A stretch of DNA of 64,000 nucleotides. Origin: Phytohabitans houttuyneae (GTDB lineage Bacteria > Actinomycetota > Actinomycetes > Mycobacteriales > Micromonosporaceae). The stretch's first letter is position 1, and each line of letters opens with the position of its first letter. Both the position numbers and the translations under genes were made by a program. Under the pieces are notes generated by a model, which worked only from the letters and a program-made list of their open reading frames with translations, was not told where the DNA came from and did no database searches. The stretch lies in the NCBI RefSeq assembly GCF_011764425.1, contig NZ_BLPF01000003.1:558001-622000 (forward strand), read 5' to 3'. Positions 57,804 to 64,000 of the stretch are shown here, one piece after another.

Positions 57804-58808
57804 TCAGGTGCCCGGCGGGTTCAGGGCGGTCGCTGAGTCTCGGATTACCAGTTCGGGTTCGGGGTCGGTGATGACACCGCCCGCGCCCGGCCGTCCTGCG
57901 ATCAGGTCGTACAGCGCCTCGACGCCGGCCCAGCCGAGTTGGTACATGGGCATCCGGACTGCGGTCACGGCCGGGCGTAGGTGTTGCATCAGGTCGACGT
58001 CGTGGATGCCGACCACCGACAGTTGGTCGGGGATGGCGATGCCGAGGTCGTGCGCGGCGGCGAGGACCCCGACCGCGCTCATGATGTTGTTGACGACGAT
58101 GGCTGTCGGTGCGGTTGCCGCCTGCATGGCCTGCCGGAGCCCGTCGGCGCCGGCCTGCTCGCCGAACCCGGTGGCCAGGTGTGGGGCCGGTGTCAGCCCG
58201 GCGGAGTCCATCGCCTGCTGGTAGCCCACGTAGCGCTGCTGGGAGATGTATCCCGATCCCCCGATGAAGACGATGTGGCGGTGGCGGAGGTTGACCAGGA
58301 ACCGGGTCGCGATCTCACCTGCGCGGCGATCGTCGATGTCGATCCAGGGATGGTCCGGTGCGTGTTCCAGGATCAGGATCGGCTTGGGGTGGGAGCGGAG
58401 TTCGGCCATTACGTCGTCGTCCAGCAGCCCTTCGCCGCGGATCAGGATGCCGTCGACCGTGCCCTGGCTGAGTAGCCGGGTGAGGAACTGGCTGCCGGAG
58501 CGCATCGTCTCGGCATCGCCCAGCAGGACCGTAGCGCCGTGTTCCGCCGCCGCTTCGTAGACGCCTTGCCGAAGCGGTCCGTAGACCGGGTTGTCGAGCT
58601 TGTTGAGGATCATCGCGATCATGCCGGTTTGGTTGAGTCGAAGCGAGCGCGCCGCATGGTTCGGCTGGTAGTCCAGTTGCTGCATCGCCCGGAGCACCCG
58701 GGTGCGGGTGGATTCCCTCATCCGGGTGTGGCTCGTGCCGTTGACCACCGCTGACACCACCGCGAGCGACACCCCAGCAGCTCGTGCGACGTCACGTTGC
58801 GTTGCCAT
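57804..58808 (-). CDS. LacI-family transcriptional repressor
   Basis: A 334-residue sugar-responsive repressor. The helix-turn-helix is TQRDVARAAGVSLAVVSAVVNGTSHTRMRESTRTRVLRAMQQLDYQPNHAARSLR, including the hinge helix. A periplasmic-binding-protein-like sensor domain follows. It diverges from the pyruvyl transferase and importer operon across 81 bases that hold two GACGTA-type sites, so it most likely represses that operon and itself. Confidence 0.94.
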   Translation of the reverse strand: MATQRDVARAAGVSLAVVSAVVNGTSHTRMRESTRTRVLRAMQQLDYQPNHAARSLRLNQTGMIAMILNKLDNPVYGPLRQGVYEAAAEHGATVLLGDAETMRSGSQFLTRLLSQGTVDGILIRGEGLLDDDVMAELRSHPKPILILEHAPDHPWIDIDDRRAGEIATRFLVNLRHRHIVFIGGSGYISQQRYVGYQQAMDSAGLTPAPHLATGFGEQAGADGLRQAMQAATAPTAIVVNNIMSAVGVLAAAHDLGIAIPDQLSVVGIHDVDLMQHLRPAVTAVRMPMYQLGWAGVEALYDLIAGRPGAGGVITDPEPELVIRDSATALNPPGT

Positions 58809-58828: not shown

Positions 58829-58876
58829 TTGACGTAACGTCTCACCAACCCCTACGTTGAATTAACGATACGTCAC
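58829..58876. promoter_or_regulatory. Promoter with two LacI-type operators in the divergent region
   Basis: The perfect palindrome GACGTAACGTC is at 58831-58841; a second copy on the other strand reads TGACGTATCGTTAAT at 58862-58876. A -35-like TTGACG (58829-58834) and -10-like TACGTT (58853-58858), 18 bases apart, drive the rightward operon, with the first operator on the -35 element. Confidence 0.7.
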
Positions 58877-58889
58877 CGAAGGAGCATGC

Positions 58890-60179
58890 ATGACATCGAC
58901 CCGTCACACCGTCCTCCTGCGGTCGTCCTGGGCGACGGTGAACATCGGCGACGTGGCTCACTCCCCTGGTGTCGTGCGGGCGTTCCAGCGGTTCGCCCCC
59001 GAGGTCGAGGTCGTCCTCTGGCCGGTGCGGCTGGAGGAGCGCGAGCGATCCATGCTGCGACACGCGTTGCCCGATCTGCGCGTCGTCGACGGCACTCTCG
59101 ACGGCGACGGGCCGAGCACCTCGGAGTTGGCCGCCGCCATCGACGGCGCGGACGTGCTGATGCACGGATCGGGCGCCGACGCCTTCCAGAGCACCGAGAT
59201 CGACTGGTGGCGCCGGCACGTGGGCCGCCCGTACGGGTACTTCGGGGTCACCGTGGATCCGCTGTGCCCACCGACCGCGGCGACGCTGCCGGAGCTGGCC
59301 CGGATGGTCGATCTGCTCCCGCCGTCCTATCTCGACGACGACGTCAAGGACCGCCTCGACGGCGCCGACTTCGTCTACTGCCGCGAAACGCTGACCCTCG
59401 CCACCCTGCGCAGCCAGAAGATAACCAGGCCCGACCTCGCCTTCGGGCCGGATGGCACGTTCGCGTTCGACCACATTGACGCCGTCGCGGCCGCCCGCCT
59501 GCTGGAGGGTCTCGGCCTGGAGCCCGGTCGGTTCGCCTGCTTCGTCCCGCGGCTGCGCTACAGCCCCTACGCGAAGATCTACGGCACGGATCCGACCCGC
59601 GAGCAGATGCGGCGCGACGCGGTCAACCGGGCGACCGTGACGCACGACCTGGCGGTGCTGGCGGCGGCGATCGAGACCTGGGTACGTGTCAGCGGCCTGC
59701 CGGCCGTCGTGGTGCCCGAGATGAGCTACGCCGTCGAGCTCGCGCACGAGCACCTTCCCAGCCTGGTCAGTCCAGAGACACTCAGGCAGGTCCGGCTCCT
59801 GGACCGGTACTGGCCGCTGGAGGAGGCGACCGGTGTCTACGCCGCCTCGTCGCTGGTGGTCAGCATGGAGTGTCATTCGCCGATCCTGGCCGCACGGCAC
59901 GCGATCCCGACCATCTACCTTCGACAGCCGACCGAGACGACCAAGTCCCAGATGTTCGCCGACCTCGGCGCTCCGGACCTGGTAATCGAGCTCGACCATC
60001 GCGCCGCGGCAATGGTGGTCGCGGCGGTCACCGACATCGCCACCGACCCGGCGCCCGCGGTCGCCCGGAGCAGGAGGGTCGCGGCGAACGCCGACGACCG
60101 GCTGCGGGCGGCGGTGCGGGCCTGCGTCGCGGGCCAACCCATCGGCTTGCCTGTACAGGTGGGGAGCGGCGATGCATAG
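58890..60179 (+). CDS. Polysaccharide pyruvyl transferase family protein
   Basis: A 429-residue cytoplasmic protein of the family that adds pyruvate ketals to cell-surface sugars (CsaB, ExoV, WcaK group). Family landmarks are the early NIGDVAHSPGVVRAF, a GADVLMHGSG segment, FVYCRETLTLATLRS, and the C-terminal VYAASSLVVSMECHSPILAARHAIPTIYL, which resembles the usual SxRxHxxxxA motif region. Here the motif reads SMECHSPILA, so the Arg is replaced. The ATG at 58890 follows AAGGAG. It is the first gene of a LacI-controlled sugar importer operon, an unusual place for a cell-wall modifying enzyme. Confidence 0.82.
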   Translation: MTSTRHTVLLRSSWATVNIGDVAHSPGVVRAFQRFAPEVEVVLWPVRLEERERSMLRHALPDLRVVDGTLDGDGPSTSELAAAIDGADVLMHGSGADAFQSTEIDWWRRHVGRPYGYFGVTVDPLCPPTAATLPELARMVDLLPPSYLDDDVKDRLDGADFVYCRETLTLATLRSQKITRPDLAFGPDGTFAFDHIDAVAAARLLEGLGLEPGRFACFVPRLRYSPYAKIYGTDPTREQMRRDAVNRATVTHDLAVLAAAIETWVRVSGLPAVVVPEMSYAVELAHEHLPSLVSPETLRQVRLLDRYWPLEEATGVYAASSLVVSMECHSPILAARHAIPTIYLRQPTETTKSQMFADLGAPDLVIELDHRAAAMVVAAVTDIATDPAPAVARSRRVAANADDRLRAAVRACVAGQPIGLPVQVGSGDA

Positions 60180-61083
60180 CCTGCGCAACCGCTGGCGGCG
60201 CGACCGGGTCCTGCTGCTGCTCGCGCTTCCCGGGGTCACGGCGCTGCTGCTGTTTCACTACCTGCCGCTCGGCGGGAACATCATCGCGTTCCAGGACTTC
60301 CAGCCGTTCCTGGGAATCTGGCACAGCCCTTACGTCGGGCTGGACAACTTCGAGCCCGTGCTTACCGGCGACCCGGTGTTCCTCAACGCGCTCGTCAACA
60401 CGCTGATCATCACGCTGATCCAGGTCGTCTTCGTGTTCCCGCTGCCGATCTGCCTCGCGTTGGTCCTGAACGCGACGATCAGCGAACGACTCAAACGCCT
60501 GACCCAGTCGATCCTCTACATGCCGCACTTCCTGTCCTGGGTGATCGTGGTCGCCCTGTTCCAGCAGATGTTCGGCAACGGCGGGATGCTCAACGGCTGG
60601 CTGCGCTCGGCCGACCTGTCGACATTCCACATCGTCGGCGTGCCCGAGTTGTTCAAGCTCATGATCACATCACAGGTGATCTGGAAGGACACCGGCTGGT
60701 CGACGATCATCTTCCTCGCCGCACTGTCCAGAGTGGATCCGGCACAGATGGAGGCCGCGGTGGTGGACGGCGCTTCGGCGGTGCGCCGCCTGTGGCACGT
60801 GACCCTGCCGTCTATCCGCCCGGTGATCGTCCTGCTGCTGATCCTGCGGCTCGGTGACTCGCTGTCCGTCGGGTTCGAGCAGATCATCCTGCAGCAGGCC
60901 CAGGTCGGCGCCGGTGCCAGCGAGGTGCTCGACACATACGTCTATAACCACGGGATCGTCGGCGGGGACTGGGGCACCGCGGCCGCGGTGGGGCTGATCA
61001 AAGGCATTGTCGGTGTCGCGCTCGTGCTCGGCGCGAACCGGGCGGCCCACGCGCTGGGCGAGCAGGGGGTGTACGCCAAGTGA
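60172..61083 (+). CDS. Sugar ABC importer permease, LplB/YteP type
   Basis: A 303-residue membrane component with six helices. The start LLLLALPGVTALLLFHYLPLGGNIIAFQDFQPFLGIW is diagnostic for the LplB/YteP branch that imports complex oligosaccharides such as rhamnogalacturonan or alpha-mannan fragments. The EAA loop is EAAVVDGASAVRRLWHVTLPSIRP. It overlaps the pyruvyl transferase gene by eight bases, with GGGGAG upstream, so translation is coupled. No ATPase is encoded here; such importers often share a distant MsmK-like ATPase. Confidence 0.93.
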   Translation: MHSLRNRWRRDRVLLLLALPGVTALLLFHYLPLGGNIIAFQDFQPFLGIWHSPYVGLDNFEPVLTGDPVFLNALVNTLIITLIQVVFVFPLPICLALVLNATISERLKRLTQSILYMPHFLSWVIVVALFQQMFGNGGMLNGWLRSADLSTFHIVGVPELFKLMITSQVIWKDTGWSTIIFLAALSRVDPAQMEAAVVDGASAVRRLWHVTLPSIRPVIVLLLILRLGDSLSVGFEQIILQQAQVGAGASEVLDTYVYNHGIVGGDWGTAAAVGLIKGIVGVALVLGANRAAHALGEQGVYAK

Positions 61084-62051
61084 CGGGTGTACCTGTGTCG
61101 GCTGCGGTGTCCGTGGCGCGCCCCGCAGGCGGCGCGGGACCGCGGCGGTCGCGCTCGGGCCGTGGCCAGCGTCCGGCCTGGATGGGTGAGCCCAGCAAGC
61201 TGGGGATCGGTGCGCGGGGACTCGTGCTCGGCGTGGGCTGCCTGGCGGTGGTGGTTCCGTTCTGGGCGGTGCTGATGACCAGCATGGCCTCCCCGGAGGA
61301 GATCAGCAGTGCGGGCGGCTTCGTGCTGTGGACGCGCGAACCGACGCTGGACGCCTACCGGGCCGTCCTGTCCGGCGGAATCGTCACCCGTGCGCTGATG
61401 GTGAGCGCCGGCATCACCGCGCTGGGCACGGCACTCAGCCTCGTCGCCACGATCGCTCTGGCGTATGCGCTGTCTAGGCCAGGTTCGTTGCTGCACAAGC
61501 CGATCCTGCTGATGACGGTGTTCACTTTGCTGTTCAACCCGGGCATCATCCCGATGTACCTGACGGTCAAGCAGCTCGGCCTGCTGGACAACTACCTGGC
61601 ACTGATCCTGCCGGTGCTGGTGAACGCGTTCAACGTCATCGTCATGCGCGCGTTCTTCCTGGAAATCCCCAGCGAGCTAGTGGAAAGCGCCTTTATGGAC
61701 GGTGCGGGGGAGGTGCGCATCCTGCTGCGGATCGTGCTGCCGCTGTCGAAGGCGGTCGTCACCGTGATCGGACTGTTCTACGCGGTGGCGTACTGGAACG
61801 CGTTCTTCTCCGCGATGTTGTACCTGCAGTCGCCCGAAAAGTGGCCGCTGCAACTGGTGCTGCGCACCTACGTCGTCAACAACACCCCGATCGGATCCGA
61901 CCAGCTCAGCTCCAACCTGGAGAACCTGCCACCGCAAATCTCCGTCCAGATGGCGATTCTTGTCATCTCCATCCTGCCCATCCTGCTCATCTACCCCTTC
62001 ATCCAAAAGCACTTCGCCAAGGGACTCATGGTCGGCGCCGTCAAGGGCTGA
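61080..62051 (+). CDS. Sugar ABC importer permease, LplC/YtcP type
   Basis: Second permease of the pair, 323 residues, starting with GTG that overlaps the previous stop (GTGA). The conserved parts are FWAVLMTSMASPEEISSAGGFVLW, NPGIIPMYLTVKQLGLLDNYLALILP, MRAFFLEIPSELVESAFMDGAGEVRILLRIVLPLSKAV (EAA loop) and the C-terminal YPFIQKHFAKGLMVGAVKG. The last motif is nearly invariant in the YtcP/LplC group. Confidence 0.93.
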   Translation: MTGVPVSAAVSVARPAGGAGPRRSRSGRGQRPAWMGEPSKLGIGARGLVLGVGCLAVVVPFWAVLMTSMASPEEISSAGGFVLWTREPTLDAYRAVLSGGIVTRALMVSAGITALGTALSLVATIALAYALSRPGSLLHKPILLMTVFTLLFNPGIIPMYLTVKQLGLLDNYLALILPVLVNAFNVIVMRAFFLEIPSELVESAFMDGAGEVRILLRIVLPLSKAVVTVIGLFYAVAYWNAFFSAMLYLQSPEKWPLQLVLRTYVVNNTPIGSDQLSSNLENLPPQISVQMAILVISILPILLIYPFIQKHFAKGLMVGAVKG

Positions 62052-62083
62052 TCGGTCGTCCACACAATGTGGAAGGAGACGTC

Positions 62084-63706
62084 ATGGCACCTAACCTCAG
62101 CCGTCGTCGCGTCCTGGCACTCGGCGCGGCAGCGGGGCTGGGCCCGCTGCTCGGGGCATGCGGCGACGGCGGGTCGAGCTCGTCGAACGGCTCGACCGGG
62201 CCGGTCAAGCTGCCCACCTACAAGCCCGTCACCGCGGCCACGCCCGACCTGGCCGCCGAGCCGGCCGGGGTGTCGCCGGGATACTTCACATACCCGACCG
62301 CCTCCAGCGCAGCGTCGCAGCCGGTGCAGGGCGAGGCCGTCACGGCGCTGACGTACACGTACGACCCGATCGCCCCCGCGCTCGGCTCGAACCCCTACTG
62401 GCAGAACCTCAACGACAAACTCGGCACCGAACTGAAGATCACCTACGTCGCGTCGGCGGACTACAAGAGCAAGGTAGCCACCACCATCGCCGGTGGCGAC
62501 CTGCCGGACATGGTCGCTATCCAGGGCGTCGTCCAACAGATGCCGGCCATGCTGAGGGCGACATTCACCGACCTGACCGAGTACCTGTCCGGGGACGCGG
62601 TCCTTGCCTACCCGAACCTCGCCGGCCTGCCCACCGATGCCTGGCGCAGCACCGTCTACGACCAACGGATCTGGGGCATCCCGGTGCCGCGGGCACGGAT
62701 CGGCACCGTGCTGTACACCAGGGCCGACCTGCTGGCCAAGGCCGGACTCAGCCTTCAACCCACGTCGTGGGACGAGTTCAAGCAGATGGCGGCCGCGTTG
62801 ACCGACGAGCGGGCCGGCCGCTGGGCGTTCGGGCAGATCCCGTTCACCACGATCCTGGAGATGAACGGGATCACCGGAAACTGGCCCGGCGGCGCCGGCG
62901 CCTGGCAGGCCAAGGACGGCGTCTTCACCCACACCGGGACGACACCGCAGTTCGCGCAGGCCCTCCAGGACACCGTCGAGCTGGTGAAGTCCGGGGTGAT
63001 ACATCCCGACCAGGCGGGCGCGCCCAACACCAAGCGCAACGCGTGGATGCTGGCCGGCACGACCTCGTTCACCATCGGCGGGTACGCCGGTTGGGGCAAG
63101 TTCTACGGCCAGGCCAAAGACGTGACCGGCTTCCGCCTGACCGGCATGCTCTCGCCCACCCGGGATGGCACGGGGACGCAGGTACGCACGCCCGGTCCGG
63201 CCCTGTCCAGCTTCACCGCCATCGCCAAGACCGACGACGCCGACCGGATCAAGCAGATCCTCAAGGTCCTCGACTGGTTGTGCTCACCCTTCGGCAGCCG
63301 CGAGTACATGGCACTGCGGTACGGCGTCGAGGGCCAGACGTTCAACCGCAACGGCTCCGACCCGACCCTCACCGAGGGCGGGCGCAGCCAGACATTCCTG
63401 CCCGTGCGGTACCTCGCCGAGGCATCGCCCGTCATCTACGAGCCTGGTAACCGCCAGGCCGTGCAGGACCAGTACGACCACCAGGTCGCCGGCGTCCCGC
63501 TCGCCGCCCCGGACCCGACCCTCGGGCTGTACTCGGAGACCGCCGCCAGCAAGGCGGCCAGCGAGCAGCAGGAACTGGACTCGGTCCTGCTGGAGATCCA
63601 GCTCGGCAACAAACCCGTCTCGGCATGGCAGCCGGCCATCAAGCAGTTCATGGACCGGGTGGGCAACAAAATCAAGGCGGAGTACGAGGAGCAGGCGGGT
63701 CGCTGA
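62084..63706 (+). CDS. Sugar-binding lipoprotein, LplA/YtcQ type
   Basis: Captures the oligosaccharide for the two permeases. The signal SRRRVLALGAAAGLGPLLGACG contains a twin-arginine pattern and a lipobox, so Tat export with lipid anchoring is likely. The mature part (541 residues in all) has the GDLPDMVAIQG, LYTRADLLAKAGL, PTSWDEFKQMAAAL and YMALRYGVEGQTF landmarks of the large extracellular binding proteins of this transporter group. A strong GGAAGGAG precedes the ATG, 32 bases after the permease stop. Confidence 0.93.
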   Translation: MAPNLSRRRVLALGAAAGLGPLLGACGDGGSSSSNGSTGPVKLPTYKPVTAATPDLAAEPAGVSPGYFTYPTASSAASQPVQGEAVTALTYTYDPIAPALGSNPYWQNLNDKLGTELKITYVASADYKSKVATTIAGGDLPDMVAIQGVVQQMPAMLRATFTDLTEYLSGDAVLAYPNLAGLPTDAWRSTVYDQRIWGIPVPRARIGTVLYTRADLLAKAGLSLQPTSWDEFKQMAAALTDERAGRWAFGQIPFTTILEMNGITGNWPGGAGAWQAKDGVFTHTGTTPQFAQALQDTVELVKSGVIHPDQAGAPNTKRNAWMLAGTTSFTIGGYAGWGKFYGQAKDVTGFRLTGMLSPTRDGTGTQVRTPGPALSSFTAIAKTDDADRIKQILKVLDWLCSPFGSREYMALRYGVEGQTFNRNGSDPTLTEGGRSQTFLPVRYLAEASPVIYEPGNRQAVQDQYDHQVAGVPLAAPDPTLGLYSETAASKAASEQQELDSVLLEIQLGNKPVSAWQPAIKQFMDRVGNKIKAEYEEQAGR

Positions 63707-63887: not shown

Positions 63888-64000
63888 GTGAGACGACGCT
63901 ATTTTCCCTGGTACACGCCTCGACAGGCCCGTGCGGGGGCCGCTGCGACGCTCGTGCTGGCTCTGGTGGCGACGGTCCTGTCGCCGGGCCGGGCCGCCGC
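63888..64000 (+). CDS. Secreted protein, N-terminus only (cut by window edge)
   Basis: The GTG at 63888 is preceded by AAGGGAGAA. The readable part, VRRRYFPWYTPRQARAG then AAATLVLALVATVLSPGRAAA, is a signal peptide with a basic start and an AxA cleavage site. The rest lies outside the window. It follows the importer genes in the same direction by 181 bases and may be the secreted hydrolase that produces the imported sugar; that is inference. Confidence 0.75.
   Translation, partial: MRRRYFPWYTPRQARAGAAATLVLALVATVLSPGRAA

Follow-up and report, generated by a model that had tools for sequence, protein, structure and literature searches.

The window analyzed here, a stretch of 64,000 nucleotides from Phytohabitans houttuyneae, carries a gene for a pyruvyltransferase-like (PPT-like) protein of 429 amino acids (58890..60179, plus strand; Pfam and alignment) that belongs to the Pfam family PF04230. 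The branch of PF04230 that contains this protein very likely functions in glycan catabolism rather than in the synthesis of surface polymers. The PPT-like enzyme is probably a hydrolase of glycan catabolism that works independently of phosphoenolpyruvate (PEP), with a substrate and a reaction that we infer. Hydration of a 4,5-unsaturated uronyl end is the likeliest single chemistry and is proposed here tentatively.

The gene order agrees in its coordinates with the preliminary description of this DNA, in which a LacI gene, the PPT-like gene, and importer genes were listed. The divergent LacI-family regulator (57804..58808, minus strand) matches the Pfam families LacI and Peripla_BP_3. ABC permease 1 (60172..61083, plus strand) overlaps the PPT-like gene by 8 nt, and ABC permease 2 (61080..62051, plus strand) overlaps permease 1 by 4 nt. 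Both permeases are of the CUT1 type and match PF00528. They are followed by the gene for the solute-binding protein (SBP; 62084..63706, plus strand; PF13416/PF01547), whose N-terminus carries a twin-arginine motif plus a lipobox as judged by eye. By Pfam, the cassette contains the two BPD_transp_1 permeases and the SBP of an importer. No ATPase gene was seen in the cassette; LplABC systems likewise have no ATPase gene in the cassette. The preliminary description had coupled the PPT-like gene to LplB/LplC/LplA-type genes. The overlaps are as described, but the Lpl type is not borne out: permease scores were far below the cut-offs of the NCBIfam equivalogs (UgpA, GlcU, and others), none specific for LplB/LplC/LplA was passed, and the SBP had no NCBIfam match. 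"CUT1-type" is therefore the safer name.

The window ends inside the operon, and the continuation was read from the source genome (G000, 11.3 Mb). A secreted protein gene had been said to follow, and the gene beyond position 64000 was to be identified. It is a heparinase II/III-like secreted gene with a GTG start at 63888 (63888..64000 in the window, plus strand; whole gene L002:9888-13382, 1164 amino acids), and its product has the Hepar_II_III N and C domains (PF16889 and PF07940) and an extra C-terminal region. A perfect palindrome of 11 bp, GACGTAACGTC (58831..58841, no strand assigned), sits between the divergent LacI and PPT-like genes, with one match in the window and 0.02 expected. Ten of the 11 tight-cassette loci described below carry it exactly, and the remaining one, L015, differs by a single change. 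It is the probable operator common to LacI and the PPT-like operon, as had been proposed.

Conservation of the neighborhood had been set beforehand as a test, and further copies of the cassette were found in Micromonosporaceae, Streptosporangiaceae, and Jiangella. The tight cassette, defined by blastn from the source locus and spanning LacI through the stop codon of the lyase (about 9.6 kb), is present in 11 genomes, namely the source, three other Micromonosporaceae, and seven Streptosporangiaceae. The three other Micromonosporaceae genomes have a cassette that is 93-95% identical, with LacI called only as a fragment in L024. In the seven Streptosporangiaceae genomes, the identity is 91-93% for the LacI-SBP portion and 85-88% for the lyase. 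The flanks differ between genomes, except for a downstream dehydrogenase gene in Micromonosporaceae. Because a near-identical cassette has mostly unrelated flanks, horizontal transfer between actinobacterial families is suggested. The operon order is the same in Jiangella (L018, L019) and L099; DNA identity in Jiangella is 81% for the lyase and 65-70% for the rest of the cassette. At the Ruania and Haloactinopolyspora loci (L020, L022), a Dpp-type importer accompanies the LacI, lyase, and PPT-like genes, which are still grouped together. The dehydrogenase gene downstream of the Micromonosporaceae cassette, outside the window, is that of a D-2-hydroxyacid dehydrogenase (L002:13632-14645); it is kept in L010 and L025, is a fragment in L024, and has no match in the Streptosporangiaceae loci. 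A transposase-like open reading frame (by eye; L002:18980-20000) lies about 5.6 kb downstream of the cassette.

The PPT-like protein scores 40.5 bits against PF04230, above the curated cut-off of 25.3, and this is its sole Pfam match. PF04230 matches were found in 67 of 198 Actinomycetota genomes, with scores of about 23 to 176 bits; the source genome has no match besides the PPT-like protein. Profile-profile comparison with 20 ordinary PF04230 proteins, including E. coli WcaK, gave a probability of 99.3 and an E value of 6.8e-21, with about 16% identity to WcaK in this alignment. In a PDB sequence search, the family profile gave chance-level matches only and the PPT-like protein alone gave none. 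AlphaFold2 was used to predict the structure from 18 sequences, and the model (pLDDT 88.9) shows a GT-B-type fold. The best 50 Foldseek matches were UDP-GlcNAc 2-epimerases, UDP-glycosyltransferases, and similar GT-B proteins; the closest solved folds were UDP-GlcNAc 2-epimerases (1v4v, E 2e-11, TM 0.55-0.61), and Pvg1p was absent among these 50.

Residues 324-332 of the PPT-like protein read VSMECHSPI, as expected from the earlier observation that SMECHS replaces the usual SxRxH motif, so that E327 stands in place of the usual Arg. A PDB-chain alignment to 5ax7 (E 0.0025, weak but consistent) places the Pvg1p sites on the Asp of NxGD, the Arg of the RD motif, and the Arg of RxH, with R217 and R337 serving to derive the index offset of 53 by which D106 was placed. 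The assignment of D106 to the Asp after GGG, which is lost here, was ruled out, since this alignment puts D106 on the kept NxGD Asp. Among the 40 members of the branch, Asp21 (NxGD; Pvg1p D106) is kept in 39, one call being N-terminally short, and in 21 of 23 ordinary proteins. The called open reading frame L109:9223-10236 is a PPT-like member without its N-terminal part. Arg165 (RD motif; Pvg1p R217, CsaB R148) and His329 (motif His; CsaB H308) are kept in all 40. Lys352 is also invariant in the 40 members, yet it lies two columns off the invariant Lys of 23 ordinary members (CsaB K328). At the position of Pvg1p R337, Glu is found in 29 and Asp in 11 of the 40 members. Of 29 ordinary PF04230 proteins, 24 have Arg at this position, four have Ser, one has Pro, and none has an acid, in a set biased by the trimming of 23 of the 29 by an Arg-containing motif, with 2 of 30 loci unrecovered and six read from hidden Markov model alignments. 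As five of the 29 have Ser or Pro, the RxH Arg is not universal in PF04230.

According to passages of PMC4872226, D106 lies close to the acceptor in a model of yeast Pvg1p, and R217 and R337 contact PEP there. Passages of PMC10435577 report from CsaB mutants that R148, H308, and K328 matter for PEP binding. Based on these alignments, the branch appears to keep part of an enol-pyruvyl site, namely Asp21, Arg165, His329, and possibly Lys352. It shares with the ketal-pyruvyltransferases CsaB, Pvg1p, and WcaK the PF04230 family, the GT-B-type fold, the NxGD Asp, the RD Arg, and the motif His, but differs from them in the acid for Arg, in its degradation and uptake loci, and in the export motifs of some members.

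For the phylogenetic analysis, 27 non-redundant branch members and 29 ordinary PF04230 proteins were used, and the tree was rooted on WcaK. The branch forms one distinct clade within PF04230 with a support of 1.0, which bears out the earlier suggestion of a new branch. A twin-arginine motif within the first 25 residues was detected by regular expression in five of the 40 members (L023, L026, L072, L073, and L115), and L115 has a lipobox too (by eye). No export motif was seen in the PPT-like protein of the window. The 22 members without the twin-arginine motif form a clade (support 0.99), and the five with it fall outside this clade and split into two groups, with weak support (0.5) for their branching order. 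Ten heparinase-linked members of the 27 in the tree also form a clade (support 1.0), which holds although the transporter type changes between CUT1 and Dpp. Six of the seven members in the tree that accompany a second secreted family form a clade (support 1.0), and L071 is placed elsewhere. Since a GT-B protein with this motif would be exported folded, cytoplasmic PEP should not reach the five motif-bearing members. PEP access outside the cytoplasm is possible in principle, because transporters carry PEP into the Golgi in yeast, as stated in part of PMC4872226.

The branch is rare. Sampling covered Actinomycetota and one Bacteroidota neighborhood, and each census count includes the centre genome. 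Members were found in 5 of 200 genomes of the source family, in 1 of 396 evenly drawn Actinomycetota (the source only, E 1e-20, with at most four candidates scored in most genomes), in 12 of 396 genomes from the order of Ruania, and in 2 of 295 genomes from the class of the Saprospiraceae genome. The 296 genomes of the phylum of G200 gave G200 and one weak, broken match only. Scanning of genome contigs gave 14 loci, and a plasmid collection gave 2 records. In total, 40 loci were used; the Nonomuraea gerenzanensis copy was left out, and L010 and G104, which are one contig, were counted once.

Genes within 9.5 kb of the PPT-like gene were then counted in the 40 loci. The heparinase II/III gene of the window's cluster is beside the PPT-like gene in 18, and with the diverged L102 protein (Pfam) the heparinase-like partners total 19, a count that omits L103, whose protein had no Pfam scan. 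The second secreted family (about 650-840 amino acids) is present at nine loci, L103 included. A LacI-family gene is found at 33 loci, permeases at 29, and the SBP of the window's cluster at 22. SusC/SusD genes are annotated around the Spirosoma member (L073), L115 has a GH43 match, and the neighbors in L026 are GH2, GH36, and a beta-helix protein. A set of IclR, DHDPS, and MR/MLE occurs in L070 (Pfam) and L101 (by cluster). L110, L111, L113, and L114 have a common neighborhood, with IlvD/EDD in L111, an aldolase-SDR fusion in L110, and a GH106 match in L114 below the cut-off (26.9 vs 29). Three loci, L072, L112, and L115, have an FAD oxidoreductase (PF12831) close to the PPT-like gene, and L071 has a look-alike by sequence only. 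Of the neighbors annotated, none was recognised as a gene of surface-polymer synthesis.

The downstream secreted protein has heparinase III (PDB 4mmi) as its closest solved relative by sequence, with an E value of 2.6e-19. The positions aligned with the catalytic Asn, Tyr, and His residues of heparinase III are conserved in all 18 cluster members; in the diverged L102 protein, the Asn and Tyr positions differ. The protein resembles heparinase III (4mmi, 5jmd), which we take to be family PL12, in both Hepar_II_III domains and in these three positions. It differs in its extra C-terminal region and in its score of 80 bits against the NCBIfam HepC equivalog, below the cut-off of 700. A diverged heparinase-like/DUF4962 family was also observed (L018:18425-20425, L019:17404-19386, L099:18433-19901, L102:14545-18387, and L103:17608-19899). 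Its gene comes right after the window-type lyase in L018, L019, and L099, and replaces the lyase in L102. The second secreted family (L021:7605-9932, L071:12062-14035, L100, and L103-L108) may be a new family of polysaccharide-active enzymes. The idea that the two secreted kinds exclude each other was ruled out by L103, which has the second family together with a gene 42% identical to the L102 heparinase-like protein.

The lyase-like gene beyond position 64000 shifts the likeliest substrate towards an unsaturated uronyl oligosaccharide. In the proposed pathway, the secreted heparinase-III-like lyase would cut an acidic polysaccharide, the CUT1-type ABC importer would take up the oligosaccharides, and LacI would sense them. 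The cytoplasmic PPT-like enzyme would then hydrolyse the acidic end group of the imported, lyase-made oligosaccharide without PEP. A 4,5-unsaturated uronyl end is chemically akin to PEP because it has an enol ether beside a carboxylate. The pocket that once protonated the PEP enol may now protonate the enol ether of the lyase product, with an acid (Glu327) in place of the PEP-contacting Arg and water in place of the sugar acceptor. The preliminary description had suggested a role on imported sugars, perhaps in the reverse sense. That the enzyme is part of a conserved catabolic cassette is supported; reversal to PEP looks unlikely, because an acid stands here for the Arg modelled to contact PEP and five relatives carry export motifs, and hydrolysis is the more plausible direction.

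GH88/GH105 enzymes hydrate 4,5-unsaturated uronyl ends, and the GH88/GH105 genes beside CUT1 importers would have the same place in the pathway, from importer to central metabolism. The PPT-like protein differs from them in being unrelated in sequence: PF07470 is not matched, only PF04230. If this chemistry holds, the PF04230 fold could have given rise to unsaturated uronyl hydrolases of a new family that is independent of GH88/GH105, with an older exported form in Bacteroidota utilisation loci and a cytoplasmic form in actinobacterial importer operons, a proposal made with the same caution as the chemistry itself. The source genome has one GH88/105 gene, which lies with the only other Hepar_II_III_C match in L116 (G000:C2:1978000-1997900). 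This locus has a heparinase-like gene, DUF2264, an SBP, a permease pair (one scanned), GH88, KduD (347.6 vs the curated cut-off of 338.85), and GH43. Within the window cassette, the PPT-like gene alone encodes an intracellular enzyme, and it takes the slot held by GH88 and KduD at L116. GH88/105 is over the cut-off in one of the 11 tight-cassette genomes. In three Micromonosporaceae genomes, G037, G104, and G119, the cassette lyase is the sole Hepar_II_III_C match and GH88/105 is absent.

Several observations weigh against the reading as a PEP-independent hydrolase. At 24.4 bits against a cut-off of 24, L116 itself is barely heparinase-like. Each of the seven Streptosporangiaceae genomes contains 4-6 Hepar_II_III_C matches, 3-5 of them over the cut-off, and no GH88/105 over the cut-off, so that a lack of GH88/105 is no special feature of the cassette, and both Jiangella genomes, with the same cassette gene order, have GH88/105 elsewhere. 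The absence of GH88/105 as proof of substitution was given up on these two grounds. KduI is over the cut-off in only 2 of the 11 tight-cassette genomes, and the product of a GH88-like step would therefore be left without its usual next enzyme in most of them. At L072, a motif-bearing member, a GH88-like gene lies at a distance of about 4.7 kb; as both genes are there, they are no substitutes for each other in L072. Neither secreted partner family is present in 12 of the 40 loci, four of which are Bacteroidota (L023, L072, L073, L115), and a secreted lyase was not recognised in L110, L111, L113, and L114. The second secreted family had no Pfam match (two scanned) and no PDB relative, and its single-sequence model had a mean pLDDT of 33.7 and was not used.

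Removal of pyruvate ketals is the other form that a PEP-independent hydrolase could take, and it ranks next after uronyl hydration while being individually unlikely. The enzyme would be a depyruvylase, cytoplasmic or extracellular by branch, that hydrolyses the ketals on oligosaccharides from a bacterial exopolysaccharide of the colanic-acid or xanthan-like kind. The ketal is the known chemistry of the fold, GH29 fucosidase, GH31, GH36, or GH2 genes at some loci are compatible with exopolysaccharides, and such an enzyme would not duplicate the function of the GH88-like gene at L072. Arg165, His329, and possibly Lys352 match the CsaB residues R148, H308, and K328 that passages of PMC10435577 tie to PEP binding. 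In part of PMC6090015, enzymes degrading pyruvylated oligosaccharides were "not well known" as of 2018. The same part describes PvGal-ase, which also handles pyruvylated glycans; it differs in being a beta-galactosidase that frees pyruvylated galactose by glycosidic and not ketal cleavage. However, an unsaturated uronyl lyase product would still need its own enzyme, and no locus shows a pyruvylated substrate. In the literature searched, neither a depyruvylase nor a PF04230 branch in utilisation loci was found described, and there was no match on the GH88 mechanism; the review PMC6801904, in the part available, treats the family as transferases.

Another catabolic GT-B chemistry, such as glycosidic-bond phosphorolysis, epimerisation, or isomerisation of the imported sugar acid, is doubtful and comes third. 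The nearest solved folds are UDP-GlcNAc 2-epimerases, glycogen phosphorylase also has the GT-B fold, and sugar-acid enzymes (MR/MLE, DHDPS, IlvD/EDD) occur at some loci. The conserved Asp21, Arg165, and His329 point instead to a pyruvyltransferase site, and a nucleotide-sugar gene was not recognised among the annotated neighbors. Finally, an ordinary PEP-dependent pyruvyltransferase, co-transcribed with the importer by chance and acting on a surface polymer or an imported sugar, is improbable: the above-cut-off PF04230 score, the kept D106 and R217 equivalents, the five ordinary proteins without the Arg, and the lack of another PF04230 match in the source genome speak for it, but all 40 members have E or D at the R337 position, exported relatives should be without cytoplasmic PEP, no surface-polymer genes were recognised nearby, and the importer and degradation context recurs across loci.

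PF04230 proteins, the Spirosoma member among them, are usually annotated as surface-polymer pyruvyltransferases. If the reading of the branch as catabolic is true, this clade would mean misannotation as well as a new enzyme activity and a new role for the family. Ketal removal, if true, would fill a gap in the degradation of pyruvylated oligosaccharides. Uronyl hydration, if true, would give a new fold for a key step after polysaccharide lyases.

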